A DNA stretch of 54,456 nt, taken from a virus. The position numbers and the translations under genes are program-made. A model generated the notes under the pieces. It searched no databases. It saw only the letters and a list, made by a program, of their open reading frames with translations, and was not told the DNA's origin. This document shows positions 32,799-48,778 of the stretch, one piece after another; position 1 is the stretch's first letter; each line of letters begins with the position of its first letter. The stretch covers positions 1-54,456 of IMG/VR virus record IMGVR_UViG_3300027898_000010. One strand, 5' to 3'.

Positions 32799-35180
32799 AT
32801 GACGCCAACGAAAGAGCAGAGCGAAGCGCTCGAAAAATTCGCCACCGGCAAGAGCCTGCGCATCGGAGCCTTTGCGGGTTCGGGCAAGACCAGCACGATG
32901 AAGCTGCTATCCCGATCGACCTCGCGTGCCGGGGTGATGATGTGCTTCAACAAGAGCATCGCGGAGGACGCGGCCAAGAGCTTCCCTCGCAACGTTTCGT
33001 GCCAGACGACGCACGGGATGGCTTTCCGCTCCATGCGGGACGCCTACTCCACCGAGAAGCTGACGGGATCGCTGAACGGCGGATTCGTCGCCGCCAAGCT
33101 CCGCATCAACTCGCAGGACTACGGGGCTGGCATGGTGGTTCGTGGCCGCCAGCACGCCTTTCTGATCGTAGAAACCCTAAAGCGCTGGATGCGCTCCGAC
33201 CGCCCCCAGGTGATGTGGTTCGACGTTCCGCTCGACGGCAAGCTTTCCACGTTGACCGATGATCTGGCCAAGCAGGTGGCCTTCCGCATCGCCAAGGACG
33301 CCCGCGACGTTTGGGAGAAGATGATCGACCCCAGGCACGAATTGCCGCTTGGGCACGACGGATACCTGAAGGCATGGGCGATGAAGCGGCCGGAGATCCC
33401 GTGCGACTTCCTGGTGCTCGACGAGGCTCAGGATACGAATCCAGTCGTGCTCGGGATTTTAAAAAATCAGCAGGCCCAGACTGCGTGTGTCGGCGATGCG
33501 CACCAATGCCAACCGGCGGGCACGATGGTGGCCGTTGTCACGAAGAAATCGACCAGTGGAGCCAAGGCCAAGGGCGCGACTTCTGCACGTGCGGAATGGG
33601 AGAGCGTGCCGATCGAGCGGATCAAGAGAGGCGATCGCGTCGTCTCGTACAACATCAGCGGGCGGCATCTGCGGGCCGACGGCGACCTCGTCACCAGGGT
33701 GGCTAGCCGTCAATTTTCAGGCAACCTCGTCCGCGTTTTTGTTGGAGGAAAGGTCATCGACTTCACGCCAAACCACCGATGCGTCGTCAAGATCAATGGC
33801 GGCCTAAAAGGCAAGCACGTCGTCTATTTGATGCGAAAAGGAGGTTCGTTCCGGATCGGTAAATCACAGGCTGGCTACACATCCCAGCATGGGCAACTCG
33901 GATTCATGGCCCGAGCATCTAACGAGGGCGCTGAGAAAGTGTGGGTTCTCAGTATTCACGACAGTGATCGGGAGGCGCGCATCGCAGAGGCGGTCACGGC
34001 TGCAAAATTCGGACTTCCAGTTATCATGTTCAAAGACAGCATGGCAAAGTCCAGATCCGCCAATCGCAACGGCGATCAGGCATACATAGACGCCGTATTT
34101 TCCGCGTTGGGCGATCTCACGCACAATGCCATCGCTGCTCTAAATGCCCATGGCCGGCATCTCGAATACCCAATCTGGAGGAAGGGCGCGGCAAACCTGA
34201 AAAATCGCCGAGTCACCGAAATCCACGCCTGCAATCTTATGGATGGAATGAACTTCATCAGTGGCTCAGAGCGTGGGCACGGGCGCCCGGATATGGCTCC
34301 CATCAAAGTCGAGCGCATCCCGTTTAGCGGCATCGTCTACTCGATCGAGGTTGCCAACGTCAAAACCTACATCGCAAACGGCTTCGTGACGCACAACTCC
34401 ATCTATCAATGGCGCGGGGCGATGAACGCGATGAAGGAACTCCCATGCGAGCAAGAAGCGCGGCTCTCGATGTCGTTCCGCTTCGGGCAAGCCATCGCCG
34501 ACGAAGCGACCGACGTGCTGCGGCTGCTGGGCGAAACGCTGCCCTTGCGCGGCAACCCGAACATGGCAAGCATGGTCGGGCCGGTGGAGCTTCCCGACGC
34601 GGAGTTGTTCCGCACGAATGGCCGCTTGATCGAGGCCCTGATCGACTACATCCAAACCGGCTTGCGGCCGATGGTAGTGGGCGGAGTGAATGATATCCTC
34701 GCCATGGTCGACGGCAGCGAGAAGCTGATGCGCGGCCAGCCGGTAGAGTACCCGCTCGAACTGTTCGGGTTCTCCCACTGGGGTGAGGTTCAGGAGGCCA
34801 GCGAGCGCGAAGACGGCCAGGAACTGCGCCGCTGGGTCCGGCTGATCGACCAGCATGGCGTCGATGGGCTGCGTAAGGCCCTGACGGGGCTCCCGACAAG
34901 CGAAGCCAACGCCAACGTGATCATGAGCACCGGGCACAAATCCAAGGGCCGCGAGTGGGGCAAGGTCCGGCTCGAAGACGATTTCCTGCGCAACGTGACC
35001 ATCGACGGAGAGGCATCGCGAGCAAACTTCGCCGCCGGAAAATTCGATGAAGAACTACGGCTGTTCTATGTCGCGATGACGCGAGCCGAAATGCAAGTCG
35101 AGATCCCGGAAAGCTTAACCGAGAAGGTCGCCGGGCTGAGCGGGATCATGAGGGAGCCAGGATTTAGGAGGGCAGCATAA
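32799..35180 (+). CDS. UvrD/Rep-type helicase with in-frame intein
   Basis: Without the intein the protein has about 496 residues. Motif I GAFAGSGKTSTM (23-34), motif II VLDEAQD (206-212), motif III split by the intein (GDAHQ / SIYQWRGA), motif V-like STGHKSKGREWG and motif VI LFYVAMTRAE are all present. These enzymes unwind DNA 3' to 5' in replication or repair. The intein occupies residues 237-533 and must splice out to restore motif III. First gene of a plus-strand island; stop overlaps the HNH start (TAATG). Confidence 0.9.
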   Translation: MTPTKEQSEALEKFATGKSLRIGAFAGSGKTSTMKLLSRSTSRAGVMMCFNKSIAEDAAKSFPRNVSCQTTHGMAFRSMRDAYSTEKLTGSLNGGFVAAKLRINSQDYGAGMVVRGRQHAFLIVETLKRWMRSDRPQVMWFDVPLDGKLSTLTDDLAKQVAFRIAKDARDVWEKMIDPRHELPLGHDGYLKAWAMKRPEIPCDFLVLDEAQDTNPVVLGILKNQQAQTACVGDAHQCQPAGTMVAVVTKKSTSGAKAKGATSARAEWESVPIERIKRGDRVVSYNISGRHLRADGDLVTRVASRQFSGNLVRVFVGGKVIDFTPNHRCVVKINGGLKGKHVVYLMRKGGSFRIGKSQAGYTSQHGQLGFMARASNEGAEKVWVLSIHDSDREARIAEAVTAAKFGLPVIMFKDSMAKSRSANRNGDQAYIDAVFSALGDLTHNAIAALNAHGRHLEYPIWRKGAANLKNRRVTEIHACNLMDGMNFISGSERGHGRPDMAPIKVERIPFSGIVYSIEVANVKTYIANGFVTHNSIYQWRGAMNAMKELPCEQEARLSMSFRFGQAIADEATDVLRLLGETLPLRGNPNMASMVGPVELPDAELFRTNGRLIEALIDYIQTGLRPMVVGGVNDILAMVDGSEKLMRGQPVEYPLELFGFSHWGEVQEASEREDGQELRRWVRLIDQHGVDGLRKALTGLPTSEANANVIMSTGHKSKGREWGKVRLEDDFLRNVTIDGEASRANFAAGKFDEELRLFYVAMTRAEMQVEIPESLTEKVAGLSGIMREPGFRRAA
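33507..34397 (+). mobile_element. Intein A in helicase motif III, 297 aa
   Basis: Starts with Cys (CQPAGTMV) after GDAHQ, has block-B-like TPNHRC, block F VYSIEVANVKTYIANG and ends VTHN, followed by extein Ser (SIYQWRG). All self-splicing residues are present (C1, block-B His, penultimate His, terminal Asn, +1 Ser). No LAGLIDADG motif. The centre has HVVYLMRKGGSFRIG and WVLSIHDSDREARIAEAV, shared with the intein at 47045. Confidence 0.92.
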
Positions 35181-35530
35181 TGTGCACGGTTGAGCAGAAG
35201 AAGATCAAGAGGATCAGAGAGTTTTGGTATCGGCAGCAGGGGGCGTGCTGCTTCTGGTGTCAGCAGCCGGTTCCGCCCGATGAGGCGACGGCCGACCACA
35301 TCATCGAACGGTCGAAGGGCGGGCGCACCACGATCGAGAACATCCGCATGGCCTGCGCCCATTGCAACTGGCACCGCTCGAACGGGCCGCGCTACGATGC
35401 CCACGTCAAGGCCCGACAGAGGCACCTGGAGGGACTGCGTCCGAATTCCCTGCCCAAGACCATGATCAAAGAAGGCCTTCGCGAGATTGAGCGGCGCAAC
35501 CGAGAGCAGCCGATCGGTGCCAGCCCATGA
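35180..35530 (+). CDS. HNH endonuclease, 116 aa
   Basis: Classic HNH: CCFWCQQPV zinc pair, then TADHIIERSKGG and ENIRMACAHCNWHRS. ATG overlaps the helicase stop. Such small HNH proteins often assist packaging with the terminase, but here it travels with the helicase in a plus-strand island, so a repair or homing role is also possible. Confidence 0.85.
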   Translation: MCTVEQKKIKRIREFWYRQQGACCFWCQQPVPPDEATADHIIERSKGGRTTIENIRMACAHCNWHRSNGPRYDAHVKARQRHLEGLRPNSLPKTMIKEGLREIERRNREQPIGASP

Positions 35531-35787
35531 GGATGCCGAACCTTGTGACCAGGCGTCTCGCGCCGGACCCAGCGCCGCCGGAGGCAGCCAACGGGATCGA
35601 GTTTGAGTCGATGGACGATCTAGCCGACCGCATCGACACGCAGAAGGCTGCCATCGCAAAGACGGTGGCCAAGCTGCAGCAAGAGAACGAGAACCTAGAC
35701 GATCTGATCCGGCAAATGACCACGATCATCGAGGCGCGGCAGGTGTTGAACCGCACAAATCAACCGTACGTTTTCGAGGAAGACTGA
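35527..35787 (+). CDS. Coiled-coil protein, 86 aa
   Basis: ATGA overlap with the HNH gene. Residues 28-72 form a heptad-rich helix (RIDTQKAAIAKTVAKLQQEN). No catalytic motif. Likely an accessory of the helicase island. Confidence 0.65.
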   Translation: MRMPNLVTRRLAPDPAPPEAANGIEFESMDDLADRIDTQKAAIAKTVAKLQQENENLDDLIRQMTTIIEARQVLNRTNQPYVFEED

Positions 35788-35788
35788 C

Positions 35789-35980
35789 ATGCCGACAGAT
35801 GGCTTCACTTGGCTGCGGTTTGTGCCGCACACGCGGGTAGCCGATTACGAGAGCGTCGGCTGGGAGTTGAGCGACGACCTTTCGACGTGCCACCACGGCC
35901 AGCACGCGGTGATCATGAGGTGGGCTGGAGAGGGCTACCCGCGAGCGCCGGTCAACGCGTGGTCCGATCCGCAAGGGTAG
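35789..35980 (+). CDS. Hypothetical protein, 63 aa
   Basis: Starts just after the coiled-coil gene with GGAAGACTGAC ahead of ATG. Aromatic-rich small fold (TWLRFVPHTR, GWELSDDLSTCHHG). Resembles short phage proteins of unknown function. No family named. Confidence 0.6.
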   Translation: MPTDGFTWLRFVPHTRVADYESVGWELSDDLSTCHHGQHAVIMRWAGEGYPRAPVNAWSDPQG

Positions 35981-36032
35981 CCTGCGCCCGGCCGCCGTAC
36001 TACAATGACGACCCCAGCAACGGAGCACCGAC

Positions 36033-36347
36033 ATGAGTATGTCCGACATCCGAACCTATACGCGCCTTGTCGTGCACAAAGCGCGGCTGGACGCCGACGA
36101 CGTGATGCTGGCGGCGATCGATAGAGCCGTCGTGGAAATCATGTTCATGGTCCGCCAGGATGCGGCAACATACCTGAGCGGTGCCGGAGAGTGCTCCGCT
36201 GCCGCTACGCTCCTGGCCATGACGGATCGCCAGCACGAAGGCTTTCAGGCGTTGACGCGAGACGACCTTATGGACGCTCTTCGTCGCCGGGGGGAGGAGA
36301 GCCGTCCGGCAAAGTCCTTGACGCCATCAGATCCCGCTCACCCTTAA
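36033..36347 (+). CDS. Hypothetical protein, 104 aa
   Basis: Mostly helical (LDADDVMLAAIDRAVVEIMF), basic C-terminus. The ATG at 36033 or two codons on (MSMSD) is ahead of a weak GGAG. Ends the plus-strand island. No family recognised. Confidence 0.6.
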   Translation: MSMSDIRTYTRLVVHKARLDADDVMLAAIDRAVVEIMFMVRQDAATYLSGAGECSAAATLLAMTDRQHEGFQALTRDDLMDALRRRGEESRPAKSLTPSDPAHP

Positions 36348-36441
36348 AACAAGAGGCTGAGCGGAAAGGGCAGCGTCGCGGAGCTTTCGTACTGCTCGTC
36401 ATCGCTCCGCGGGCCAAAGAAGGCATTCGCGTCTGCCACGG
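36348..36441. other. Convergent gap with imperfect hairpin
   Basis: Between the plus-strand 104-aa gene and the minus-strand 81-aa gene. CCGCTCA and TGAGCGG (about 36334-36364) form a 7-bp stem with a 17-base loop; no T run. Might be a weak bidirectional terminator. Confidence 0.3.
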
Positions 36442-36687
36442 CTACTTGCCAGGAATCGTCGGTGGCGCCGCGCTTGGACCCGCCCCCGGCGACGGCTTGC
36501 GGAAGGCGTTGTCGACGGGCGAGACGGACGGCGCCGGCAGGCGGAGGCCCTTCATCTTGGCCTTGCCGCCACGCATGCGCTGGTCGTCGTTGTCGGGCGG
36601 CCCGCCGGGATTGCCGACGCCTTCGCCAGCGGGGGGTCCAACCATGGGCTTGGGCTTCGTCGGCTGGCCTTTGAGGGGGGGCTGCAT
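36442..36687 (-). CDS. Pro/Gly-rich protein downstream of portal, 81 aa
   Basis: Pro, Gly and Lys dominate (GPPAGEGVGNPGGPPDNDDQ). GAGCATTCC precedes the ATG. The stop of the portal lies 9 bases upstream. Like the portal C-terminus and the 112-aa protein at 18132 it looks disordered. Possibly a head or portal accessory. Confidence 0.5.
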   Translation of the reverse strand: MQPPLKGQPTKPKPMVGPPAGEGVGNPGGPPDNDDQRMRGGKAKMKGLRLPAPSVSPVDNAFRKPSPGAGPSAAPPTIPGK

Positions 36688-36696
36688 GGAATGCTC

Positions 36697-39024
36697 CTAT
36701 CGGGTTGCGAGTGCGGGTCCAGGCGCGCCAGGGCCATCCTGGGGCGGAACAGGCATGCCGCCGGGTTGGCCAAGGCGCGGCGCCTGGCCGGGAAGAACGG
36801 GTGGGGGCGGGGGCATAGCCGCCCGCGGCAATGGAGGGCCGCCAGATGGCGGTGCAGGACCACCTGGCGGCATTCCCGGGGCGCCAGGAAGGGCCACGCC
36901 CACGGGGTTCATAAAGGCATTCATGGTTGAGTTCGGGTTTCCGGGGCCGCCCATCTGCGAGACGATGGTGGGCGATCCCCAGACGATCGGGAACTCCTGG
37001 AACATCTGCGGCGTGGCCATCGAGGCGACCAGCTGCGCCATGGCGTCGGCGCGCGTCTTCTCGCCCTTGGCAATCTCGCTGTCGACCTTGGCGGCAGCAA
37101 GCAGCGCTTCGAGTTCGGCCATTTTCGCCTGCATGGCGACGGCTTGCGGATTGGGCGCGGTTGCCTCATCGATGAGAGCAAACAGCCGGTCTTTGTTCGG
37201 CACGCCGGAGAGCGTGATCAGGATCTTACCCATCGGGGTCAGCGCGGTCGGCCCCATTTGAGCGAGCTTGTCCATAAGCTCCTCGTTCATGGTGACGGTG
37301 TCGGGGCCTTCCTCGATGATGATATTGACGTCCATTTGAGCAACGTCGTTCCGGATCGTCATCTGGCCGGTCTGGGGGTCCTGCACCGGCTGGTTGATGC
37401 CGATGAACTTGAAGCCCTTGTCGTCGTCGGTGACGGAGAACCATAGCTCTTGGGTCCAGAACTGGCGCACGAGAAGCCAGTTGCGGCGGTAGCTGGTGAT
37501 CTTGAACTCGCGGTGGCGCTCGAAGATCGGCGACATTTCCGTCATGCCGGCATTCTGCTTTGCCAGGATCGCACGGCCAGACTGCGACTCGGTACCCTGA
37601 CCCTCGCCCATCATGGCGGGGTTCGGCCCGTAGTTCGCCATCTGCGAGACAGCGACCTCCAAGAGCTTCGCCTGCCCGGCGATCTCCGAATCGAGCGTGA
37701 CGATTTGGAACTTCTTGTCGATGCCGTCCTTGCCCCTGGGGTTCAGCATGATCACGCCGTCTGGGCGCTTGGCTTGCTCGCGGGCGTGGTTCACGTCGTC
37801 AACGGCGCCCTTATCCGCGATGATCTGCCGGACGGACATCATCCACAGCAGACGCGAGTGGCGGGCGTTGATGGCGTCCTGAATGGGGATCAGGTCCTTG
37901 ACGACGCCGTAGCGCTCGCCGCCCTCGTCGACGTTGCACGAGGAAGCGATGATAGGGCAGTAGGTCTCGCCGTCTTCATCGACGTAGAGCGAAGGCTCGT
38001 CGTAAAGCTTGATCGCGCCGCAGAAGTAGCAGCACCGCCACTGGCCCTTGTACCGATAGTACAGGTGCACGATGCGGACGCGGCCAAGGACCGACGACCA
38101 CCACTCTGACTTGACGCGGGACCACTCGCCTGGAACGCCGCCCGAGCGGGTCGGATCGCCAAGGCCGGAGAGCGAGCGCATCATGTCGGCGCTGTCGGGC
38201 CGCCCGAGCTTGTCGAAAAGCTCCTCGGCGTCCTCGATATCCATCCACGTCCACTCGCCAAGGAACTTGGCGTCGGCGAAGTCCCAATCCATCGAGCGCG
38301 GGTCGTAGATGAACTGGATTGCCGGAATGCGCCGGTTCTTCAATTCGACCTTGTTGGTGAAGCCCTTTTGCTCGGCGCCTTGCCACATAGCGCCAATGCC
38401 ACGAACGAAGAAGTCGCGGCCTGCCTCGCTAAACAGGATCGGCGCGCGATTCTGGTCGTGGACCTCGCGCAAGGCGGCCGTCGCCGCATCGCAGTCGCCT
38501 TCGTGCTTGGGCGTGCGGGGCTGAGCCTTCGGATCGCGCCGAAGGCGTTGCTCGATACCGATGTACGAATCGACCTTCTTGCGCAGCTCGTTGAAATAGG
38601 TTGGCGGTTGGGACCGGCGGGCAAAGATGGCCAGCTGCTCGGGCGTGAACTGCTTGCCGTGATAGTACCGCTCGTACCCCAACTGATTGACCAGCTCAGG
38701 CAGCTTCGTGGCAATCCAGGCCTGATACATTTCGACCAGGCGGGAGCCGGGCAAGCCGTCCTCGCCGCCGGTGTACTGGTTGCCCTTGGCGACCCGGTCC
38801 ATGGCCGCGCCGCTTGAGCCGACAGACGGGCCGCCCTGCGCCTCGATGCCGAACATGCCCGCCACTTCGCTCTGCGGATCAGCATCGGCCATCGGGTCCA
38901 TATCGATGGGGTCGTGGTTGATTCCGGCGGAGGCAAGAGCCTGCTGCAGCTGCGCAAGCGCATCCCCGCCAGACGGTGGTCCCGGCATGGAAGGGGGTTG
39001 CGGCTGTGGCTGCTGATTGAACAA
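36697..39024 (-). CDS. Portal protein, P22-like
   Basis: 775 residues. The segments QAWIATKLPE-type helix, YYHGKQFTPEQLAIFARRSQ and FNELRKKVDSYIGIEQRLRR are characteristic of P22-type portals, as are KDLIPIQDAINARHSRLLWM and ILAKQNAGMTEMSPIFERHR. The C-terminal 90 residues are a Pro/Gly-rich tail. Forms the dodecameric DNA channel. Distance to TerL is about 5 kb because of the methylase and plus-strand island. Confidence 0.88.
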   Translation of the reverse strand: MFNQQPQPQPPSMPGPPSGGDALAQLQQALASAGINHDPIDMDPMADADPQSEVAGMFGIEAQGGPSVGSSGAAMDRVAKGNQYTGGEDGLPGSRLVEMYQAWIATKLPELVNQLGYERYYHGKQFTPEQLAIFARRSQPPTYFNELRKKVDSYIGIEQRLRRDPKAQPRTPKHEGDCDAATAALREVHDQNRAPILFSEAGRDFFVRGIGAMWQGAEQKGFTNKVELKNRRIPAIQFIYDPRSMDWDFADAKFLGEWTWMDIEDAEELFDKLGRPDSADMMRSLSGLGDPTRSGGVPGEWSRVKSEWWSSVLGRVRIVHLYYRYKGQWRCCYFCGAIKLYDEPSLYVDEDGETYCPIIASSCNVDEGGERYGVVKDLIPIQDAINARHSRLLWMMSVRQIIADKGAVDDVNHAREQAKRPDGVIMLNPRGKDGIDKKFQIVTLDSEIAGQAKLLEVAVSQMANYGPNPAMMGEGQGTESQSGRAILAKQNAGMTEMSPIFERHREFKITSYRRNWLLVRQFWTQELWFSVTDDDKGFKFIGINQPVQDPQTGQMTIRNDVAQMDVNIIIEEGPDTVTMNEELMDKLAQMGPTALTPMGKILITLSGVPNKDRLFALIDEATAPNPQAVAMQAKMAELEALLAAAKVDSEIAKGEKTRADAMAQLVASMATPQMFQEFPIVWGSPTIVSQMGGPGNPNSTMNAFMNPVGVALPGAPGMPPGGPAPPSGGPPLPRAAMPPPPPVLPGQAPRLGQPGGMPVPPQDGPGAPGPALATR

Positions 39025-39075
39025 GCGGTGCGGCTCCGATCAGGGATGCCCATGCGTGGGCAGCTTTCGAGCCGT

Positions 39076-39188
39076 CGTCAATCCGACAGCGCCAATTGCA
39101 CGGAAGGGTGTGGCAACGAATATGGAATATTTATCCACATTTGCTGGTGGCGGGCGTTTCTCCAGTTGCAATGTGGAAGGATTTTCCC
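39076..39188. promoter_or_regulatory. Divergent regulatory cassette: block, DnaA box, two operators
   Basis: Contains CGTCAATCCGAC (39076-39087), operator TGGAATATTTATCCA (39123-39137, one change), TTATCCACA (39131-39139), a perfect DnaA-box match overlapping the operator, and TGGAAGGATTTTCCC (39174-39188, one change). Block-to-operator distance is 47 bases, nearly equal to the cassette at 32684. It serves the portal unit on the minus strand and the island at 39236 on the plus strand. Confidence 0.6.
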
Positions 39189-39235
39189 CATCATGGGTGG
39201 GCATCAGGCTACCAAGCCAGACAACGGAGACGAGC

Positions 39236-39472
39236 ATGGCCACGCTAGCGCGCATAGACGACACCCTGATCGCCCGCATCCTGGACATGATCCTCCACGA
39301 TCAGCGCGACGAGATCAACGAGGCTCTGGCCGATCAAGCTGGCGACGAGACAGCACCGCAGATCCAGGGCATCCGCACATTCGAGGAAGTCGGGGTTCTG
39401 ACCACCGACGAAGGCCTCGTGATCCGGCTGAACAACGGCCAGTGCGTCTACCTCACCATTCAGGTCCAATAG
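39236..39472 (+). CDS. Hypothetical protein, 78 aa
   Basis: ATG 39236 with GGAG upstream; the frame upstream is not used because it crosses the operators. Helical N-terminus (DDTLIARILDMILHDQRDEI) and beta C-terminus (NGQCVYLTIQVQ). First gene of the second plus-strand island, under operator control. Function unknown. Confidence 0.7.
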   Translation: MATLARIDDTLIARILDMILHDQRDEINEALADQAGDETAPQIQGIRTFEEVGVLTTDEGLVIRLNNGQCVYLTIQVQ

Positions 39473-39481
39473 GAGCACCCC

Positions 39482-39658
39482 ATGACGCCCCTCCAGCAGC
39501 GCCGCCTGCACGGCATCATCGAGAGCATCTATGCTGACGCCGCATCGAGCCTGCAGAAGCCCCGCGACTTCTCCGCGACGATACTCGATGCGCTGCACAG
39601 CGCGGGGTTCGGTGTTCAGGTCATCGACATCACGGTGCCAAGCGGAGAGCGGCGATGA
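39482..39658 (+). CDS. Hypothetical protein, 58 aa
   Basis: AGGAG precedes ATG 39482. Sequence begins MTPLQQRRLHGIIESIYADA and ends SGERR. Helical first half, short beta segment (FGVQVIDITVP). Coupled to the next gene by ATGA. No family recognised. Confidence 0.65.
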   Translation: MTPLQQRRLHGIIESIYADAASSLQKPRDFSATILDALHSAGFGVQVIDITVPSGERR

Positions 39659-39771
39659 TGAGGCGAATTTTGGCGTGGTTGCGTGAGAGACGGCGGCCGA
39701 CAGGGCACAACACATGTGAGTGCACGTCATGCCGGGAGGATTATGACTATGACAGATGGAGCAGGGACTAA
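39655..39771 (+). CDS. Tiny Cys-containing protein, 38 aa
   Basis: Starts MMRRILAWLRERRRP and has CECTSC near residues 21-26, a possible metal knuckle. Coupled at both ends (start in ATGATG after the 58-aa gene; overlap with the 84-aa gene). Real status moderate because of size. Confidence 0.4.
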   Translation: MMRRILAWLRERRRPTGHNTCECTSCREDYDYDRWSRD

Positions 39772-40003
39772 CATGAGAGTTCGGATAGCGAGCAAGCTCA
39801 AGTGGCTCAACGGCCAGCGCGGCGAATACCTTCACGATGACCCAGATGGCGGAGTGAGTTGGGCCGTCGTCCGGCTCACGAGCGGCGATGTGATCACTGT
39901 ACACAAGCGGCAGATCAGCGAAGTCGATGGCCTGCCGTCGCCAGCGTCAGTGCGCCCGGTGGTGGTTCAGTACAGGCCCAGCCGCGGGAGGGTGAGGGCA
40001 TGA
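39749..40003 (+). CDS. Hypothetical protein, 84 aa
   Basis: ATG 39749 has GGAGGA 8 bases upstream; ATG 39743 and 39773 are alternatives. Beta-rich with LKWLNGQRGEYLHDDPDGGV and SGDVITVHKRQ. Looks like an SH3-like small fold. Its stop overlaps a 15-codon frame (40000-40047), not called. Confidence 0.6.
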   Translation: MTDGAGTNMRVRIASKLKWLNGQRGEYLHDDPDGGVSWAVVRLTSGDVITVHKRQISEVDGLPSPASVRPVVVQYRPSRGRVRA

Positions 40004-40015
40004 AGGCTCCGCGGC

Positions 40016-40420
40016 ATGCAAACATTGCGAGACGAAGCGATGAGTAGGGGAGCAGAAATCGCGGCCCGCTGGATCGTCATGAGCAACAAAGCTGTCGAGG
40101 GCGCTGCCCGTGCCGCGTTGGCCGCGGAAATCGACGTTGCGATAGCTCTGGCCACAGCCCCATTTCGCATCGAATTCCCGCCGGGGCCGGAGCGGAGGCC
40201 AGATCCACACCGCATGGGGCGACGGGAGGCTTCTCAATACTTGCGCGAACGGCATTGCATAAATCTCGGCGTGCAGACGCTGGCAAAGTTAGAGTGCTTG
40301 GGGAAGGGGCCTGCAATGACGAAATCCGGCAAAGCTTGCATCTATACGCCAGCCGACCTCGACACCTGGGTGAGAGCACGCACCGTGAGGGGGAAAGCCC
40401 ATGGCCCAACGCAACTCTGA
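40016..40420 (+). CDS. AlpA/excisionase-like HTH protein, 134 aa
   Basis: The C-terminal 65 residues show MGRREASQYLRERHCINLGV ... TKSGKACIYTPADLDTWV, the winged HTH of AlpA/MerR-like phage regulators. N-terminal half is helical. ATG 40016 is used, though ATG 40040 (MSRGAEIAARW) is plausible. Could act as a regulator or excisionase; no integrase is nearby. Confidence 0.7.
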   Translation: MQTLRDEAMSRGAEIAARWIVMSNKAVEGAARAALAAEIDVAIALATAPFRIEFPPGPERRPDPHRMGRREASQYLRERHCINLGVQTLAKLECLGKGPAMTKSGKACIYTPADLDTWVRARTVRGKAHGPTQL

Positions 40421-40991
40421 CTACGCCCGGAAACCTCTAGATTTGTATTCCACGCCGACCTGGGTGACGCTCGCCCTCATTCCGCACATGCCGGACATCG
40501 AATCGGTGTGGGAGCCAGCCTGCGGTAACGGCGCCATCATCAGAGCGCTCAAGGATCACGGCATCACCTCGGTCGTCGGCACCGATATCGCGATGGGGCC
40601 GGAGTTCGACTTCATGCGGCAGGGACCGCTCAATTCTCCGCTCACCTCGCCGAGCCGAGTCGACATCATAACCAACCCGCCGTACTGCATGGCGCAAGCC
40701 TTCGTCGAGCGTGCCCTCACACTCCAATTCGGGGGCGGTGGCCGGGTTGCCATGCTGCTGAGCAACGACTTCGACCACGCCAAGACGCGCCGGCACCTGT
40801 TCGCAGACTGCCCGATCTTTGCTAAGAAGGTCACGCTCACCCGTCGAATCGTGTGGTTCGATCCAGCGGAGGAAAACGCCAGGCGCAAGGTTGCCGGGCT
40901 CAAGCCGTTGGGCGGACCCAGTGCCATCCATGCCTGGTATCTATGGGACCACCTGCACGACGGAGAGCCGACAATCGGCTGGGGAGAATGA
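40401..40991 (+). CDS. Adenine-type DNA methyltransferase-like protein, 196 aa
   Basis: Motif I-like WEPACGNGAIIRAL (about 37-50) and catalytic-type TNPPY (about 90-94) mark an N6-adenine or related class I methyltransferase. No target-recognition domain is visible, so specificity is unknown. It overlaps the HTH gene by 20 bases. May protect phage DNA or be a modifying enzyme. Confidence 0.85.
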   Translation: MAQRNSDYARKPLDLYSTPTWVTLALIPHMPDIESVWEPACGNGAIIRALKDHGITSVVGTDIAMGPEFDFMRQGPLNSPLTSPSRVDIITNPPYCMAQAFVERALTLQFGGGGRVAMLLSNDFDHAKTRRHLFADCPIFAKKVTLTRRIVWFDPAEENARRKVAGLKPLGGPSAIHAWYLWDHLHDGEPTIGWGE

Positions 40992-40994: not shown

Positions 40995-41156
40995 ATGCGT
41001 GAGTTCTGGCTGAACCTGATCTTCCCGGGGCTGTCGAAGGCACGGTCCGAACGCGAAAGCGCCGCGGCAGGGTTTGATGCCTACCAGCGGCGAAAGGAAG
41101 GACGGCTCCAGCGCCTCCTCAAGTCCCTACGCGATGGGACCATCAGCGAGGGCTAG
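40995..41156 (+). CDS. Basic small protein, 53 aa
   Basis: ATG 40995 follows the methyltransferase stop. Sequence MREFWLNLIFPGLSKARSER is an amphipathic start, then a basic helix (YQRRKEGRLQRLLKSLRDG). Last gene of the second plus-strand island. No family recognised. Confidence 0.6.
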   Translation: MREFWLNLIFPGLSKARSERESAAAGFDAYQRRKEGRLQRLLKSLRDGTISEG

Positions 41157-41189
41157 AACGGCAAGTCCGATGGTGTTCCTTTCGGGTTG

Positions 41190-41435
41190 CTAGTTAGTGT
41201 CGGGGTCGACAAGCTCGCGCCGCTGGTTGCCGACGACGACAACGGCACCGCGCCGGGTGAGACGCGCCAGGCAGCCGTAAGCGCTAGCCTCGTTCTTCCA
41301 GCCCATGTGCAGCGCAATGGCCTTGTTAGACGGGAACCCGCGACCGGCGTCGATCTCGGCGCGAACGAAGTCGAGTACGCGCTGCTGCTGGGGCGGGAGC
41401 AGACCCGATGGACGGCGCAGAAGGGGCAAGCTCAC
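41190..41435 (-). CDS. LexA-type winged HTH protein, 81 aa
   Basis: Residues about 15-75 follow the LexA DNA-binding domain order: QQQRVLDFVRAEIDAGRGFP, SNKAIALHMGWKNEASAYGC, LARLTRRGAVVVVG. There is no S24 domain, so it is a stand-alone repressor-like protein. ATG overlaps the stop of the methyltransferase gene. Confidence 0.8.
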   Translation of the reverse strand: MSLPLLRRPSGLLPPQQQRVLDFVRAEIDAGRGFPSNKAIALHMGWKNEASAYGCLARLTRRGAVVVVGNQRRELVDPDTN

Positions 41436-43264
41436 GGTGCGCTCTCCATCATTTCGATCCGGCGCCCGATCCAGCGCATGACGTTGACAGCCATCGAGTT
41501 ACCGAGCGCTTTGTAGCGTGGGCCATCGGCGGCGGGCTTGCCGCGGTAGGGAACCGCAGAATATCCTCGCGGGAAGCCCTGCAAAAACTCGCACTCTTCG
41601 ACCGTCAATCTTCTGACCTGCCAACTGGTGAGTGTTGATTTACCTTCACTGCTTGCGGGTCGCCGTACTTTTTGAACCGCTGATAGTGCTTGTCGCAGTA
41701 GCCTAACCCCTTCTGCGGCTTCCCACAGATCGTGCATGAGCCTTTCGGCTTGTGCTCCTCGTTGTGACAACTCCGACAAATACGCTCCAAGTTCTCGGGC
41801 GAGTTGTTGAGATGGTTGCCATTCTTGTGGTGGACATCTCTCGCCAAAGGATTCCCGCAGCGATTGCACGGCCCCTGCGGAACGATCTTCCTCGCGTGAT
41901 AATGCGCAGTAGACCACCCAACGTCTGGAGAATGCCGCTGGTCGAAGTTCGCTGCCATGCAGCGCTGATCGCAGAATTTCCGGCGATTGAAGTGTATCAA
42001 GTATTCCAAGTCCCCATTGGGCAAACGCTTCCTCTCCAAGCGCGCTGCGCACTCCACGCAATAGCGCTCCGGAGTCGGTTTGCGATGGGCAGGCATGGCA
42101 TTCTCCCGAAAACTCTAACAACGTAATAGCAGCCGGATCGCTGCCCGTATTCAGGCAATCCGTGACGTCGCCGGTCTCGTAGCAGCCGTCATTCCCCGTA
42201 GTGCGGTAGGCCAGCGTCGGCGCGCGGCCGTGGGCTGGGATCGGATGACACGGATCTCCCTGCGCCGGGTTGCTGCGATTGGCGGCGCTGGTGATCTGGG
42301 TCTCGTCGAAGACAACCGGCAACAGTCGGCCCGCAAACGCATCTTGTGTCGTGCCGCCCTTGTTTCCTGCCGTGTCGAGTGTGCCAGCCACGGCCACGAA
42401 CGTCTCGCTCTCGAAGTCAAAACGCCCCGAGCCGCCGTGCGCGGTCTGCGCGTTCGCTACGTCGATCGGACCGGCTTGGTTGTTACCGCCGAATGCGAGC
42501 AAGCTGTCGCACGTATCAGCGTCGGTGCCATATGGTCTATCACCGCCTGTAGAGTTTCCGCCCGCCCGCAGGCACGGCGCAACATCGCTCGCGATCAATC
42601 CTCCGTCGCAGTCGAAGTCGGTTCCAAGTCCGCCACCGCCCTTAGTGCGCGCGCTAAGAGTGGGGGCAGGGTTTTGCCCCGCTTGGCGGCGCGGCGGAGA
42701 ATTCCCGAGCAGGCTCTCGCGCTCAAATAGTACCGCTGCGGCACGTCGCCAGTCTCCAGCACATCCGACAACGAACACACGCCGTCGTCGTTGAGGGACA
42801 GCCCGGCCAAACCCGTCCACTCGGACAAACTGAGCGTCCAGCACTCGGTAGGCGAGACCATACCCGCATTCTGCCAGCCCTCCGAGGATGGAGGCGAAAG
42901 CCCCTCCCCGGTCCATGCTGAGCACACCGGGGACGTTCTCCCAGATGACCCAGCGGGGGCGCAGGCGGCGAGCCAGGAGGCAAAATTCGAGCGCCAGGTT
43001 ACCACGCTCGTCATCCAATCCGCCTCTGAGACCGGCGATGCTGAACGACTGGCACGGGGTGCCTCCGACGAGAACATCGATAGCTGCATAGTCGTTGGCC
43101 CCAATCGTTGTAAAATCGCCGTGCAGCGGTACGTGCGGATAGTGGTGCTTCAGGACCGCGCGCGGAAACGCCTCGATCTCGCTGAAAAACGCCGGACGCC
43201 AACCGAGCGGATGCCAGGCGACGGACGCAGCCTCGATGCCGGAGCAGACGGAGCCGTAGATCAA
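41432..43264 (-). CDS. dcm-like: C5-cytosine DNA methyltransferase carrying a nested HNH gene
   Basis: Motif I GSVCSGIEA, catalytic GGTPCQS (C71), ENV (109-111), QRRRRVFVVG, then RRLTVEECEFLQGFP and ALGNSMAV at the end: all C5-MTase motifs in order. At 610 residues it is long. Residues about 390-553 coincide with a second open frame coding for an HNH endonuclease (41605-42096), ending where motif IX begins. That insertion keeps this frame open. Whether the enzyme tolerates the extra segment is unknown. Confidence 0.85.
   Translation of the reverse strand: MIYGSVCSGIEAASVAWHPLGWRPAFFSEIEAFPRAVLKHHYPHVPLHGDFTTIGANDYAAIDVLVGGTPCQSFSIAGLRGGLDDERGNLALEFCLLARRLRPRWVIWENVPGVLSMDRGGAFASILGGLAECGYGLAYRVLDAQFVRVDGFGRAVPQRRRRVFVVGCAGDWRRAAAVLFERESLLGNSPPRRQAGQNPAPTLSARTKGGGGLGTDFDCDGGLIASDVAPCLRAGGNSTGGDRPYGTDADTCDSLLAFGGNNQAGPIDVANAQTAHGGSGRFDFESETFVAVAGTLDTAGNKGGTTQDAFAGRLLPVVFDETQITSAANRSNPAQGDPCHPIPAHGRAPTLAYRTTGNDGCYETGDVTDCLNTGSDPAAITLLEFSGECHACPSQTDSGALLRGVRSALGEEAFAQWGLGILDTLQSPEILRSALHGSELRPAAFSRRWVVYCALSREEDRSAGAVQSLRESFGERCPPQEWQPSQQLARELGAYLSELSQRGAQAERLMHDLWEAAEGVRLLRQALSAVQKVRRPASSEGKSTLTSWQVRRLTVEECEFLQGFPRGYSAVPYRGKPAADGPRYKALGNSMAVNVMRWIGRRIEMMESAP
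41605..42096 (-). CDS. HNH endonuclease nested in methyltransferase gene, 163 aa
   Basis: Same strand, different frame from the methyltransferase. GGGAGA lies ahead of ATG. The frame has CVEC, a second CDQRC, CNRCGNPLARDVHHKNGNHL, NNSPENLERICRSCHNEEHK and CTICGKPQKG, i.e. an HNH core flanked by zinc pairs. This is a homing-type gene embedded in its target gene. Confidence 0.85.
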   Translation of the reverse strand: MPAHRKPTPERYCVECAARLERKRLPNGDLEYLIHFNRRKFCDQRCMAANFDQRHSPDVGWSTAHYHARKIVPQGPCNRCGNPLARDVHHKNGNHLNNSPENLERICRSCHNEEHKPKGSCTICGKPQKGLGYCDKHYQRFKKYGDPQAVKVNQHSPVGRSED

Positions 43265-43677
43265 GGTCCGCCCCCTTCATCACCAGCCATGTGCAGGATG
43301 TCGCGCACCTGCCGGGGGCGCTTCAGCGGCACGACGTTGGCGCCGTAGTCCTGCGCGGTAGGCACCGGATCGAACAGGCCATCGAGCCGCAGGAAGCCGT
43401 CACAGCGCCATAGGCTCTCCGGCAGCTGACCATCGGCCATCAGGAACCAAAGTTGCACATGAGCGCCCTCGGAGGCCTCGTGACGAACGGACACCCATCG
43501 GAACCGGACAAGCTGATGGTTTACAGTCGCTGCGGGATCAGCCACCGCAAGAGCGGGTGCCTCCGACAGCATGGGAATGACCACCGGACGAAGCTCCGAC
43601 GGCACGCCGTACCTTGCTGCGACTTGCCCCGCCACCTTCCCAAGAAGCCGGCCAGTTTGGTCGATGATATCGAACAT
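43261..43677 (-). CDS. Hypothetical protein, 138 aa
   Basis: ATG 43677 is preceded by GGAGGG. I reject the longer start at 43761 because it crosses the operator. N-terminus MFDIIDQTGRLLGKVAGQVA, beta-rich middle (HQLVRFRWVSVRHEASEGAH), Pro-rich C-terminus. Stop overlaps the methyltransferase start. Own operator upstream suggests repressor control. Confidence 0.65.
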   Translation of the reverse strand: MFDIIDQTGRLLGKVAGQVAARYGVPSELRPVVIPMLSEAPALAVADPAATVNHQLVRFRWVSVRHEASEGAHVQLWFLMADGQLPESLWRCDGFLRLDGLFDPVPTAQDYGANVVPLKRPRQVRDILHMAGDEGGGP

Positions 43678-43695
43678 GATGCGCCCTCCATTTTG

Positions 43696-43710
43696 TGGAA
43701 ATTTATTCCA
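43696..43710. promoter_or_regulatory. Operator upstream of 138-aa gene
   Basis: TGGAAATTTATTCCA, with G before and C after it (17-bp GTGGAA-N5-TTCCAC), between TerL and the 138-aa gene. Could control the methyltransferase-HNH-LexA unit. Confidence 0.65.
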
Positions 43711-43757
43711 CATTCTCGAGCGCAAGTCGAGGTTCGATCGCCACCCATCCCCAGGCA

Positions 43758-45437
43758 TCACACGGTCTGCCAGTCGTTATCGGGTGCATCGCTACGGCCG
43801 GGCTCGACGTAGTCGTCCAGGTGGTTGACGACGGCGGGCGGGGGAATATGGCCTTCGACCATGGAGTCGAGCAAGCGCCCGACGAGGCCCGAGGCGTCCA
43901 CCTGGTCGTCATGCGCGGCGGTCGGGAATTGGGTTAGCTCGCGCACGTACTCCTCGACCCAGGGGTGGCTCGCATCGACGGAGATTGTCGGCAGGAACAC
44001 GCGCTTGGGGCCGGTGGCGCCGAGGGCAAGCTGGCCCTGGAAGGACCGGGCGCGCATGGCCTTGTCCTGGCGCCCCATCGAGAACTGCTCCATGGCGCCG
44101 TAGATCTTGCGCTCCTCCATCCGGCGGCGGATGAACGGGCCGATCGAGTTGACGATCTGGTCGCGGTCGGTTGCCCAATTCAGGGTGTCGTAGTCGCGCA
44201 TCAGATCGAGCATGGCGTCGACACCGACGTCGGTTGTGCACTGCTGGCGCCAGACTTTGACGATGTAGATGTTTCCCACCGGACACACGGCGAAGACCAG
44301 GTGCACGGTCCAGTCGCCGCCGTTGGACGTGATGGCGAAGTCCGACGCGCCATAGAAGCGGCAGTATTCCGGCACGACGGGATACCAGCCGAACCATTCC
44401 TTCTTGAAGAACAGGCCCTCGTCGAGCGACGGACGCTGTTGGTAGAGCGAGGCCCAATCGCGAGCGCGCGCGGGGTTATCGCGGATCTTGAACATATCCT
44501 CGGCCTTGAACCACTCCGGCCAGAGGAGATCGCCGGGAGCGCGCCCTAAGGGATCGTCGCGGCGCTCGCAAATCATCGGCAGGTTCACGACGTACCAGTA
44601 ATGGCCGTCCTTACAGCGCGCGATGCCGGTGCGTCCGTCGTAGTTGTCCGGAAGAAGCCGCCCAGCGAGATCGAGATGACTCCAGCGCGTCTGAATGAGC
44701 ATCTGCCACGCGTCCGGCTTCAGCCGGGTGAGGAACGACGAGTTGTACTCCTCCCACGTCGCGGTGGAGATCGCCTCGCTGTCTGCGTCAGCACGGTTGC
44801 GCACGGGGTCGTCGATGATGCCGACATCGCAACGGCGGCCCGTGATGCCGGCGCGGATGCCCCGCCCGAGATAGCCGCTATCGTTCTGCAGATCCCACTC
44901 GTCCGCGGCGCTGGTTTCCGCAGAGAGGCCGATGCCGAAGATATCGCGAAAATCCTCGCTCTTCGCCACCGAACGGCAACGGCGGCCGAACGAGCGCGCC
45001 AGAGACTGCTCGAACGAACAGGCCAGGATCTGCTGGCGCGGTTTGCGGCCCATGAAGTACGGCGGGAAGCCAACCGAGGCATACGTGCTTTTGGCCGCAC
45101 CAGGCGGCAGGAAGAACATGACCCGCTTGACGATGCCGCTGGGGGTTTGCACGCCGCCCTCAACCATGGCCTCCATCACGTCGATCAGAAGATCGTGGTG
45201 GGCTGCCGGGCGAATGCGGACGGGGTAGAACGTCTCGCACTCAGGGTCGTCGGGATCGAGCGGAGCGCCCGGGAGGTCAATTGACTTCAGAAATTCCCGG
45301 TAGCTTGCGCGCGCCCGCGTTCTGCGTTCCTCCTCCCACGTCCTCCGCAGGAGAGCCCAATCCGAGGCGTTCAGCGAGCTCAAGCGCTCGGGCGCGATCA
45401 CTCGCGAGAGCCTCGGTGCGGTTTGGTCCGTCCTCAT
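43758..45437 (-). CDS. Terminase large subunit
   Basis: 559 residues. Walker-A-like PPGAAKSTY (111-119), Walker B DVGIIDDP (204-211), and C-terminal nuclease signatures GASDFAI and HDDQVDASG, of the Terminase_6 type. ATG 45437 overlaps TerS by 161 bases; an internal start could shorten the first 30-50 residues, but no clear alternative with a ribosome site is visible. Packages DNA with TerS and the portal. Confidence 0.9.
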   Translation of the reverse strand: MRTDQTAPRLSRVIAPERLSSLNASDWALLRRTWEEERRTRARASYREFLKSIDLPGAPLDPDDPECETFYPVRIRPAAHHDLLIDVMEAMVEGGVQTPSGIVKRVMFFLPPGAAKSTYASVGFPPYFMGRKPRQQILACSFEQSLARSFGRRCRSVAKSEDFRDIFGIGLSAETSAADEWDLQNDSGYLGRGIRAGITGRRCDVGIIDDPVRNRADADSEAISTATWEEYNSSFLTRLKPDAWQMLIQTRWSHLDLAGRLLPDNYDGRTGIARCKDGHYWYVVNLPMICERRDDPLGRAPGDLLWPEWFKAEDMFKIRDNPARARDWASLYQQRPSLDEGLFFKKEWFGWYPVVPEYCRFYGASDFAITSNGGDWTVHLVFAVCPVGNIYIVKVWRQQCTTDVGVDAMLDLMRDYDTLNWATDRDQIVNSIGPFIRRRMEERKIYGAMEQFSMGRQDKAMRARSFQGQLALGATGPKRVFLPTISVDASHPWVEEYVRELTQFPTAAHDDQVDASGLVGRLLDSMVEGHIPPPAVVNHLDDYVEPGRSDAPDNDWQTV

Positions 45438-45891
45438 TGGTGACCTCTACGACGTCCTTCTGCCCGAGGTATTGCTTCCCGAGCCAAATCAAGATGCTGG
45501 CGTTCTTGTCAGCCATCGAGAACTGCTTGCGCCTAATGGAGATACGGAACTTCATCCCGCCGCGTTCGCGGGCCTCCAGAACGCTTTTGTTGGCCTTTAG
45601 AAACGCGTAGAGCGTTGCGGTGCTCACGTTGAGCATCGACGCGATTTCCTCGTCGGTGCTGCCGATGCCCGACAACCCCTCAACCATGGCAATCGTGCTT
45701 TCGTCGGCCTGCAGCTTGGGCGGCCTGCCGGTTTTCTTCGCCTCCAGAACCGCATCTGGCATGCGAGGCGGAGGCGGCTTCTTGTCCAGCTTAGCGCCCT
45801 TCTTAAGGCCGCGCCGCTTACCATCGGCTGGGGGCGTCTTGCCGCCCTGACGGCCATATTCGGCCTGCGTTTTGCGTTGAGGCTTGCTCAT
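45277..45891 (-). CDS. Terminase small subunit-like HTH protein, 204 aa
   Basis: GRPPK followed by GIGSTDEEIASMLNVSTATL and YAFLKANKSVLEARERGG is a common TerS DNA-recognition pattern. N-terminus is Lys/Pro-rich and the C-terminus is acidic. Directly precedes TerL. Binds the packaging site. Start overlaps the upstream remnant gene by four bases. Confidence 0.85.
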   Translation of the reverse strand: MSKPQRKTQAEYGRQGGKTPPADGKRRGLKKGAKLDKKPPPPRMPDAVLEAKKTGRPPKLQADESTIAMVEGLSGIGSTDEEIASMLNVSTATLYAFLKANKSVLEARERGGMKFRISIRRKQFSMADKNASILIWLGKQYLGQKDVVEVTNEDGPNRTEALASDRARALELAERLGLGSPAEDVGGGTQNAGARKLPGISEVN

Positions 45892-46010
45892 GGTTTCCTC
45901 GCATATTCTCCAAAGTAGCGCGCATCGGCTACTGCGCGAGCGGAGGCGGCGGATTCAAGCGACTTGTAGCGCCCGAGTTCAATCAGTTGGCCATCGACGG
46001 CGTCAGCCAC
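45888..46010 (-). pseudogene. AP2-domain remnant, 40 aa
   Basis: GTG 46010 overlaps the previous stop. The sequence IELGRYKSLESAASARAVAD, then RYFGEYARKP, matches the C-terminal AP2 end of the HNH-AP2 protein at 48775 (IALGRFDTIDEAAAARAVAA, RYHGEFARHK). The HNH part is missing, so it is probably a decayed homing gene or a surviving DNA-binding tail. Stop overlaps TerS start. Confidence 0.7.
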
Positions 46011-46197
46011 GACCACCTCCCCAGGCGGCGATGCCGATGCCCCCTGCGATGATGGCGTAGCCCTGGGCCGTGCCGCTGATGTGGATGAACGATAGCGCCG
46101 GCACGAGGTCTTGCAGCCCCTTGATGGCAGCTAGGAGGGCGAACAGCAGCGATACCGTCTGAATGAACGGGCGCATGGCGGTGAGGAACTGCGTCAC
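46003..46197 (-). CDS. Two-segment membrane protein, 64 aa
   Basis: Two hydrophobic stretches (VSLLFALLAAIKGLQDLV and YAIIAGGIGIAAWG) with short loops. ATG overlaps the stop of the 114-aa gene. Size and topology resemble class II holins, but it lies away from the lysis genes. Confidence 0.6.
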   Translation of the reverse strand: MTQFLTAMRPFIQTVSLLFALLAAIKGLQDLVPALSFIHISGTAQGYAIIAGGIGIAAWGGGRG

Positions 46198-46538
46198 GAT
46201 ACGATCTCCGGGGCTGGGCCTGCGAGGCGCTTGATGCGAGCAAGGTTGCGCTTGGCCTGCTTTACGAGGTCGAGCGCGACGTTGAAGCGGTGCTCGGCCT
46301 GCTGCAGGGCCTTTCTGCTGGTCGCAACCCGCTTGTTGATCCGAACTCTGCCGTCGGGCAGATCTTCCATGAGCGGGATACTCCGCACATCGGCGTAGGC
46401 AGCCTTGGCGCTTTCGAGAAGCACCTGGGACTGAGCGCGGTACGCTTCGGCCGTCTTCACGTCGGCAGCAGCGTCGGCCAGCGGGTTAGGCTCAGACGGC
46501 GTGTGTGAGGCTGTGGTGGGCGTGTGGAGCGTGTTCAT
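46194..46538 (-). CDS. Hypothetical helical protein, 114 aa
   Basis: ATG 46538 overlaps the TGA of the ParB-methyltransferase and follows AGAAGG. Long helical region (AEAYRAQSQVLLESAKAAYA and ALQQAEHRFNVALDLVKQAK), likely coiled coil. No family recognised. Confidence 0.65.
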   Translation of the reverse strand: MNTLHTPTTASHTPSEPNPLADAAADVKTAEAYRAQSQVLLESAKAAYADVRSIPLMEDLPDGRVRINKRVATSRKALQQAEHRFNVALDLVKQAKRNLARIKRLAGPAPEIVS

Positions 46539-48778
46539 GCGGCCTTCTCTTTGCGTTTGGGCTTCGCCTTCGGCTTCGGCTCGGGCTTTGCGTCTGGTGC
46601 CCAGCCGCGCTCGGCCACAACGTCGGCATAGGGAACCCGGGTGCCGTCGGGCTTTTCGAGGAACACCTTGTCGTAACCACCAACGAAGGTAGCCCACCGG
46701 TTGAGGGCAACGTCGACGTATGGGGGGTGGAGTTCGACGGCGTAGGCGATGCGGCCGGAAAGTTCGCAGGCCATGATGGTGGTGCCCGAGCCGCTGAACG
46801 GCTCATAGATCGCTTGGCCGGCGGTGGAGTTGTTCTCGATCGGGCGCTGCATGCAGGCGATGGGCTTCTGCGTCGAGTGGCCCGTCTCGGACTTGCGATG
46901 CTCGATGTGCCAGGTGGTCGATTGCTTACGGCCACCATGGTACTGACCCGGGTTACCGTCTTTCACGGCATAGGCGAGATCGTCGTGCTCGACATCGAAG
47001 CGGTCGGTCCATTGGTCCTTGGGGGACTTCGAGGCGAACGCGCAATTGTGAGTGACGATGCCGTCAGCAACGTAGTGCTCGTCTTTATCGACGTCGATTG
47101 AGTAGACCTCACCAACAAAAGGCTCGAACTCAACGCACTCAATGGTGCGCCATTCGAAGTTGTCTCCATCGGTCGGAACTGGAACCTGCATGATGCCAGG
47201 GACCAAATTACAAGCGGCTACACGCTTTGATTGTGAGCGGCTTGACCTCTCTCCATCTGCGCAGATAAGAGGGCGATGTTGGCTGAGGCCGAAATCGCTG
47301 AATAGGCGAGAGACGCCATCAGCAAGGCGATGGTGCCCGATCTTCAAATAGATTGCGGCGACATGATCCTTGTTGCGATGCACGTCGACCTTGTCTGGCT
47401 GACGCGCGGACGCTTCCCAGCAAGTTGTCGGGATGCCGTACACACAGCTGGCGACCTGTTCGGCAACCTGAGCCGACTGCGCGTCATCATGGGCCGACAA
47501 CACCCAGGCCGCGTCCGCTCCTTCTTGGCGACGGCGAACAGCAAGCCCAAATCCCAGAGAGTTGAACAACCGGCAGCGCCCCACTCGCCAACGCTCTCCA
47601 GAGCGCATCAGGTACACAACGTGCATGTCTGCCGCGTCGGGGGAGAAGCGAACCGTGAATGAATGCTCTGCGGTTGCGCGCGTGAGTAGATCGCCGACGC
47701 GGATAGAATGCATGTTCCCGTCATAGTCGCGCCTCACCGCCTTAGTCACGGCCCGGCCGCGCTTGCGAACAACGCTCTCGTAAGCGTTATAGCTAACGAC
47801 ATGATCGCCATCTTTGAGGGTTTCAATTGGGACCAATTCTATGTCTGCGAACGTCCCCTGACGCCCAACCTCAGTCGCGTGAGCTTCTACAACTTTTTGC
47901 ACCAAAGTTCCCGCCGGCTGGCACGGCTCATGCTGCCAATGGTAGTCGCCGCGGCTGATCGCCAGGCGGGGATTCACCCAAATGATCTGGCTCCGGATCT
48001 TGAATTTGCAGGCCTTCAGCGACTGGTAGACGACGTCGGCCATCACGCCAGCGTGCCACACGTAGGCGACGGAGCCGGGGAACAGCGCCCACGCCTCGCG
48101 CCAATCGGCCTGGTCGTCGTTCAACACCTTGCCCTTGGCCGTGTCGGCGCCGTTGGCGAGCCCAGCGCCATCGCGCCACGAAGCGTCGTACTCCACGCCA
48201 TAGGGTGGATCCGTGACCATAAGGTGCGGCTTAACCTTACCCAGCAACCGACCGACGACGTGGGCCTCGATCGAGGAACCGCAGATGATGCGGTGATCAC
48301 CAAGGTGCCATAGGTCGCCGGGCTCGGAGAGCGGGTGCTCGGGCGGTTCCGGAGTGGCCTCGGCGCGCTCCAGGTCGTCTTCCGTTAGGAGGAGCTTATT
48401 CAGTTCGTCCAGATCGAAGCCGGTCATGGCCAGATCGAAGTCGAGCGCCTGTAGCGCCTCCAGTTCGGACGCGAGCACGTCATCGAGCCACTCCGATTCC
48501 TGAGCGACCCGATTATCCGCGAGCCGATACGCTTTCACCTGCGCGGGTGTCAGGTCGTCGCCAACGGTGACCGGCACTCGCTTCAGCCCAAGCTGCTGCG
48601 CGGCCTTGAGACGCGTGTGCCCCGCGATGATCACGCCATCCGCGTCAACCACAATTGCGACGCGGAACCCTAACTCTCTGATGGAAGCCGCAACCTTGTC
48701 GACGGCCTTTGCGCTGATGGCGCGCGGGTTACGATCGTATGGCTTAACCCGCTCGATGTCCCAAAGAGCAACCTTCAT
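46535..48778 (-). CDS. ParB-domain DNA methyltransferase with in-frame intein
   Basis: 747 residues, about 454 after splicing. Residues 1-105 form a ParB/sulfiredoxin-type N-terminal domain (ASIRELGFRVAIVVDADGVI and GHTRLKAAQQLG). Residues 190-198 DPPYGVEYD are the catalytic motif of an N4-cytosine or N6-adenine methyltransferase, with EPFSGSGTTI near the end as the SAM motif. The C-terminus is a Lys/Pro-rich tail. The intein sits at HEP / CAF. ATG overlaps the stop of the HNH-AP2 gene. Confidence 0.9.
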   Translation of the reverse strand: MKVALWDIERVKPYDRNPRAISAKAVDKVAASIRELGFRVAIVVDADGVIIAGHTRLKAAQQLGLKRVPVTVGDDLTPAQVKAYRLADNRVAQESEWLDDVLASELEALQALDFDLAMTGFDLDELNKLLLTEDDLERAEATPEPPEHPLSEPGDLWHLGDHRIICGSSIEAHVVGRLLGKVKPHLMVTDPPYGVEYDASWRDGAGLANGADTAKGKVLNDDQADWREAWALFPGSVAYVWHAGVMADVVYQSLKACKFKIRSQIIWVNPRLAISRGDYHWQHEPCQPAGTLVQKVVEAHATEVGRQGTFADIELVPIETLKDGDHVVSYNAYESVVRKRGRAVTKAVRRDYDGNMHSIRVGDLLTRATAEHSFTVRFSPDAADMHVVYLMRSGERWRVGRCRLFNSLGFGLAVRRRQEGADAAWVLSAHDDAQSAQVAEQVASCVYGIPTTCWEASARQPDKVDVHRNKDHVAAIYLKIGHHRLADGVSRLFSDFGLSQHRPLICADGERSSRSQSKRVAACNLVPGIMQVPVPTDGDNFEWRTIECVEFEPFVGEVYSIDVDKDEHYVADGIVTHNCAFASKSPKDQWTDRFDVEHDDLAYAVKDGNPGQYHGGRKQSTTWHIEHRKSETGHSTQKPIACMQRPIENNSTAGQAIYEPFSGSGTTIMACELSGRIAYAVELHPPYVDVALNRWATFVGGYDKVFLEKPDGTRVPYADVVAERGWAPDAKPEPKPKAKPKRKEKAA
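47045..47923 (-). mobile_element. Intein B in ParB-methyltransferase, 293 aa
   Basis: Starts CQPAGTLV after WQHEP, has TAEHSF (block B), VYSIDVDKDEHYVADG (block F) and ends VTHN before extein Cys (CAFASK). Centre HVVYLMRSGERWRVG and WVLSAHDDAQSAQVAEQV parallels the helicase intein. No LAGLIDADG. Both inteins thus belong to one family placed in two unrelated hosts. Confidence 0.92.

Follow-up and report, generated by a model that had tools for sequence, protein, structure and literature searches.

Two homologous inteins in a helicase and a methyltransferase of one phage, very probably acquired separately from an old and widespread family with a nested GIY-YIG-like domain

Inteins are usually described as faithful to their insertion sites: alleles of the same site are generally close, and inteins of different sites are divergent, too much so for their relationships to be traced (PMC2814812). 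In 2006, GIY-YIG enzymes were reported to be absent from inteins (PMC1564403); we found no description of a GIY-YIG domain nested in an intein in the open-access literature, and priority is thus not established. Several described systems resemble the two phage inteins reported here, called A and B: i) the intein of the SPO1/CampHawk UvrD-like helicase gp34.33 (KF669649; PMC3868849), annotated as an intein, with its nuclease class unstated in both the annotation and the CampHawk genome paper (PMC3868849), ii) inteins in Streptococcus suis prophage adenine methyltransferases (MN270270, KC348603), deposited as plain methyltransferases with the intein unannotated, iii) an actinophage methylase intein (PMC9957025), and iv) the AceL NrdHF fractured-gene split intein (PMC7891396), which is of phage type and associated with a putative GIY-YIG homing endonuclease. 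The actinophage intein lies, like B, in a phage DNA methylase and has moved horizontally between divergent methylases, but its endonuclease is of the LAGLIDADG type, unlike the nested domain of B. The AceL NrdHF intein, the one other association with such an enzyme that the open-access search brought up, shares with A and B the link to a putative GIY-YIG-type domain; it belongs to class 3 and its endonuclease is a free-standing gene between the split halves, whereas A and B are class-1 inteins with the domain nested in frame.

Both inteins are located in one 54,456-base virus record, hereafter the window. The relevant features are the following:

32799-35180, + strand: UvrD-like (SF1) helicase ORF, 793 aa, host of intein A (PHROG DNA helicase, phrog_1967, E=2.5e-76)
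32799-33506 and 34398-35180, + strand: N-extein and C-extein of the helicase
33507-34397, + strand: intein A, 297 aa (Cys1, block B T87-P-N-H90, H296-N297, +1 Ser), between VGDAHQ and SIYQWRGA (insertion GDAHQ^SIYQWRG)
33810-34199, + strand: putative nested GIY-YIG-like nuclease domain of A, about residues 102-231, delimited by alignments, a structure model (pLDDT 91) and the boundaries of mini-intein L266; conserved Y107, R116-I-G118, R136 and E161
34697-34789, + strand: ARAGORN call of a tRNA-Ala within the coding part of the helicase gene, probably spurious
35180-35530, + strand: HNH-endonuclease-like ORF directly adjoining the host gene of A
46535-48778, - strand: ParB_N / N6-adenine methyltransferase ORF, 747 aa, host of intein B (PHROG DNA methyltransferase, phrog_498, E=3.7e-123, plus a ParB_N domain)
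47924-48778 and 46535-47044, - strand: N-extein and C-extein of the methyltransferase
47045-47923, - strand: intein B, 293 aa (Cys1, block B T84-A-E-H87, H292-N293, +1 Cys; model pLDDT 94), between YHWQHEP and CAFASK (insertion YHWQHEP^CAFASK)
47243-47629, - strand: putative nested GIY-YIG-like nuclease domain of B, about residues 99-227; conserved Y104, R113-V-G115, R130 and E155
48775-49377, - strand: HNH-endonuclease-like ORF directly adjoining the host gene of B

A preliminary description of this DNA had given the coordinates, strands and host genes of both inteins exactly. It was also right that A and B both begin with CQPAGT, finish with VTHN and have HVVYLMR, WVLS[IA]HD and ACNL in common; the WVLSxHD stretch, there taken for a helix, is a beta strand in the structure models. 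Most of these shared motifs occur across the family and are hardly peculiar to the pair. In BLASTP, A and B were identical at 93 of 301 positions over the full length (31%, and approximately 32% in other comparisons; E=3e-42), a likeness which therefore cannot be attributed to chance, and the claim of homologous inteins in unrelated exteins, a helicase and a methyltransferase, holds. Both inteins were also present at 100% identity on a 33,683-base IMG/VR contig, probably of the same virus, and single-protein scans of viral contigs with A and B returned this virus only. Megablast of window positions 1-25000 and 29457-54456 against phages gave no match. A third intein was suspected in the C5-cytosine methyltransferase ORF at 41432-43264 (- strand), since its PHROG match is split; a stretch of about 340 aa separates its conserved halves, but inspection by eye showed no intein ends.

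The complete set of class-1 splicing residues is present in A and B (Cys1, TxxH in block B, C-terminal His-Asn, and Ser or Cys at +1). Both exceeded the cut-off of NCBIfam intein_Cterm, and Pfam Intein_splicing matched both (E=3e-5 and 3e-6) under its gathering score. The structure predicted for B (pLDDT 94) is a HINT fold with an inserted domain, and matched solved inteins and HINT domains with E down to 7e-6. Judging from sequence, A and B are predicted to splice, and would excise themselves by the class-1 pathway, in which a Cys1 acyl shift is followed by transfer to the +1 Ser or Cys and by Asn cyclisation.

Well over 100 loci of the CQPAGT intein family were obtained from viral contigs and bacterial genomes, scanned under the guidance of an alignment, and from plasmid hits. 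Their flanks place them in nine kinds of protein, at no fewer than 13 sites:

SF1 helicase, five positions: GDxxQ^[SC], QIY^[SC], GDx^CQ, DE^CQDA and HD^CYLKMW
methyltransferase: HE[PW]^C
terminase: DELQD^C
further hosts: PD-(D/E)XK exonuclease, C-methyltransferase, clamp-like protein and portal
further hosts: DNA polymerase III alpha and one large unidentified phage ORF

The loci L215-L218 and L267, which add DNA polymerase III alpha as a host and HD^CYLKMW as a helicase position, indicate that the site range of the family is under-sampled so far. In Bacillus phage phiBsKO1-1, a short open frame (L149:2995-3309) holds a nuclease fragment of an SPO1-type intein, possibly a broken or frameshifted copy.

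In the main tree of 84 inteins, all methyltransferase-site inteins formed a single clade (52 rows, support 100/98), with B nested within it and A outside. A fell into another clade (99/94), together with inteins from other helicase positions, terminase, exonuclease and others, and most of the family's sites belong there. A tree re-run with added loci placed A and B in the same way, and when A and B were forced together, the topology was rejected (AU p=0.0016, dlnL 77.5). Trees of the splicing domain and of the nuclease domain, built apart, concurred on the separation of A and B; chimerism by a nuclease swap between inteins, considered as a candidate, is thus unsupported.

These placements bear on the main claim of the preliminary description, that one intein had been transposed between unrelated exteins rather than spread by allelic homing. 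Such transposition is borne out for the family as a whole, by its at least 13 sites, but not for the pair, with the A+B clade rejected. That one intein was copied between the two genes in the lineage of this phage could be suggested by the sharing of one 54-kb genome by two full-length homologous inteins, by the fact that unrelated exteins do host the family, and by the rarity of the situation, as the family profile, run against 53 records, detected two members in this virus alone. We consider such copying very improbable: A and B are 32% identical to each other versus 57% (B) and approximately 42% (A) to inteins elsewhere, the tree separates them, and their two target sites are without DNA similarity. 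A target sequence common to both sites was sought in the surrounding DNA and none was found, as 251 of 300 shuffles gave equally good matches. Co-residence of A and B is therefore unusual (one record of 53), yet it points to two acquisitions, because the tree places them apart.

Intein B is an allele of the HEP^C site, on which its codon, its extein and its closest relatives all agree. It was 45-57% identical to same-site methyltransferase inteins of other phages, and about 32% to A, in conformity with the rule that same-site alleles are close (PMC2814812). The Streptococcus suis inteins are located in the same type of extein at exactly this site (QWQHEP^C), are approximately 41-42% identical to B and contain the same nested domain. 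Greater similarity of each intein to alleles of its own site, which the preliminary description had named as evidence against its reading, was thus found for B, with 57% identity to an allele of its site against 32% to A. For A, there are many inteins elsewhere that resemble it more than B does; the nearest of them sit in other phages or plasmids, though off its exact codon.

Several lines of evidence can be related to movement of these inteins. In pairs from the methyltransferase site, inteins 80-84% identical to each other resided in exteins only about 55% identical. Intact empty sites, a search for which the preliminary description had proposed, were found among relatives of both the helicase and the methyltransferase genes, an example for the methyltransferase being the Aurantimonas phage AmM-1 type. 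In pairs with estimable dS, the dN/dS of the nuclease domain was approximately 0.04-0.16, a constraint similar to that of the splicing domain. The identity gap between inteins and exteins, the empty sites and the nuclease constraint together are the signature of repeated homing; allelic homing, dismissed in the preliminary description, is well supported at the site of B.

The position of A is more intricate. Identities reached 38-42% with inteins at neighbouring helicase sites and in other exteins and 36-40% with those at the same site; no relative exceeded about 43%, and A forms a long branch, so that its exact sister is unsure. The SPO1/CampHawk intein is a full-length homologue (31% to A) with the same nested domain, inserted at the same codon GDxxQ^S, but it is found on a different branch of the tree. 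Indeed, a single clade of helicase GDxxQ^[SC] inteins was rejected (AU p=0.007), from which it follows that A may owe its exact codon to a local shift and not to allelic homing. The exteins closest to that of A (L011, L015 and L103) also contain inteins among the closest to A. The lineage of A thus keeps to one helicase subfamily, yet its occupation of several codons there suggests local site shifts. The intein at L103 (L103:3001-3822, in a helicase of a Thermobispora plasmid) is without the segment beyond the YG of the nested domain, which is perhaps a decaying endonuclease.

Accordingly, A might have come to its codon from a neighbouring one of the helicase gene, for example GDx^CQ, through a short ectopic shift, which would refine the explanation by separate acquisition. 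A groups weakly with the intein of L011 (GDS^CQQIY, two codons off; support 82/87, and 56/63 with added loci) and apart from the other GDxxQ^[SC] inteins, its extein is nearest to those of L011 and L015, and five nearby helicase positions are occupied. Moreover, GIY-YIG homing enzymes such as I-TevI can cut at a distance from the insertion site. The branches concerned are deep and weakly supported, and an unsampled allele of the same codon could be the true sister of A; we therefore give the shift somewhat less than an even chance.

The nested domain matches the core layout of the GIY-YIG fold, i.e. beta-beta-alpha-beta-alpha with Tyr, x-I/V-G, Arg and Glu. The isolated domain of A was modelled as ββαβα plus helices (pLDDT 91), and Tyr in strand 1, R-[IV]-G in strand 2, Arg in helix 1 and Glu in helix 2 (Y10, R19, G21, R39 and E64 of the domain alignment) are among seven residues invariant in 43 diverse members. 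This order of strands, helices and conserved residues is that of the GIY-YIG fold, and Foldseek ranked a GIY-YIG protein first, UPF0213 BH0048 (PDB 1zg2), in a match that was non-significant (E=1.3, prob 0.07). The Tyr of the second motif (YIG) is replaced by Arg, in 43 of 43 members; the T5orf172 sequences compared, which are GIY-YIG relatives, carry Lys at this position. Profile comparisons with T5orf172, MUG113, GIY-YIG and UPF0213 sets were weak or null: hhalign gave a weak in-register match to a 5-row T5orf172 set (p 0.014), which a second set failed to reproduce, and a weak one to UPF0213 (about 0.04 by shuffling). No LAGLIDADG domain appeared among the Pfam matches of the 43 members at E<=10, no known nuclease family of Pfam or PHROGs matched the domain convincingly, and a search of solved-structure sequences with its profile returned no match. 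Owing to the non-significant Foldseek result and the weak profiles, we call the domain GIY-YIG-like and leave it outside formal membership.

That neither family libraries nor profiles identify the domain, and no fold match to it is significant, would also suit an inert or regulatory insert with no endonuclease. We find this unlikely, as the domain occupies the usual endonuclease insertion point of inteins, its Tyr/Arg/Arg/Glu set is invariant across the diverse members, purifying selection acts on it with about the strength seen for the splicing domain, horizontal movement outpaces that of the exteins, and the domain has been naturally deleted in a mini-intein. This mini-intein of the same family (L266:2001-2462, 154 aa) is missing precisely the nested domain, which is hence separable from the splicing part. 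The ORF of L266 also has a second, unrelated-looking intein-like segment, of LAGLIDADG type by eye. The nested domain is therefore likely to be a GIY-YIG-like homing endonuclease, its class and its DNA cutting being inferred.

Taken together, A and B are very probably separately acquired members of an old, widespread phage and prophage family (CQPAGT), each with a nested GIY-YIG-like endonuclease; homology, insertion sites, tree, empty sites and selection were computed, while splicing, nuclease class and DNA cutting enter as predictions. According to this explanation, a GIY-YIG-like homing endonuclease would be nested where a LAGLIDADG domain is usual. B would belong to a site-faithful lineage homing between divergent phage methyltransferases at HEP^C, and A to a site-hopping lineage at neighbouring SF1 helicase codons and in other phage proteins. 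With at least 13 sites, most of them in the clade of A, site jumping must have occurred, though at a time long preceding this phage; equally deep in the family would lie the step between helicase and methyltransferase sites, and this virus would have acquired A and B on separate occasions.

What would be new here is the putative nuclease nested in the inteins, together with their range of sites. On balance, we favour a widespread family with an in-frame nested, divergent GIY-YIG-type homing endonuclease, one branch of which hops between nearby codons and between unrelated proteins while another keeps its methyltransferase codon. The family goes unannotated in many records, such as the Streptococcus suis methyltransferases, and its nuclease lies outside Pfam and PHROGs. 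Because one alignable family covers no fewer than 13 sites, five of them in SF1 helicases, and nine kinds of phage protein, a tree can show by which route inteins come to new sites. Should the nested domain indeed be of the GIY-YIG type, off-site cutting would offer a testable reason for the drift of one branch between nearby codons.
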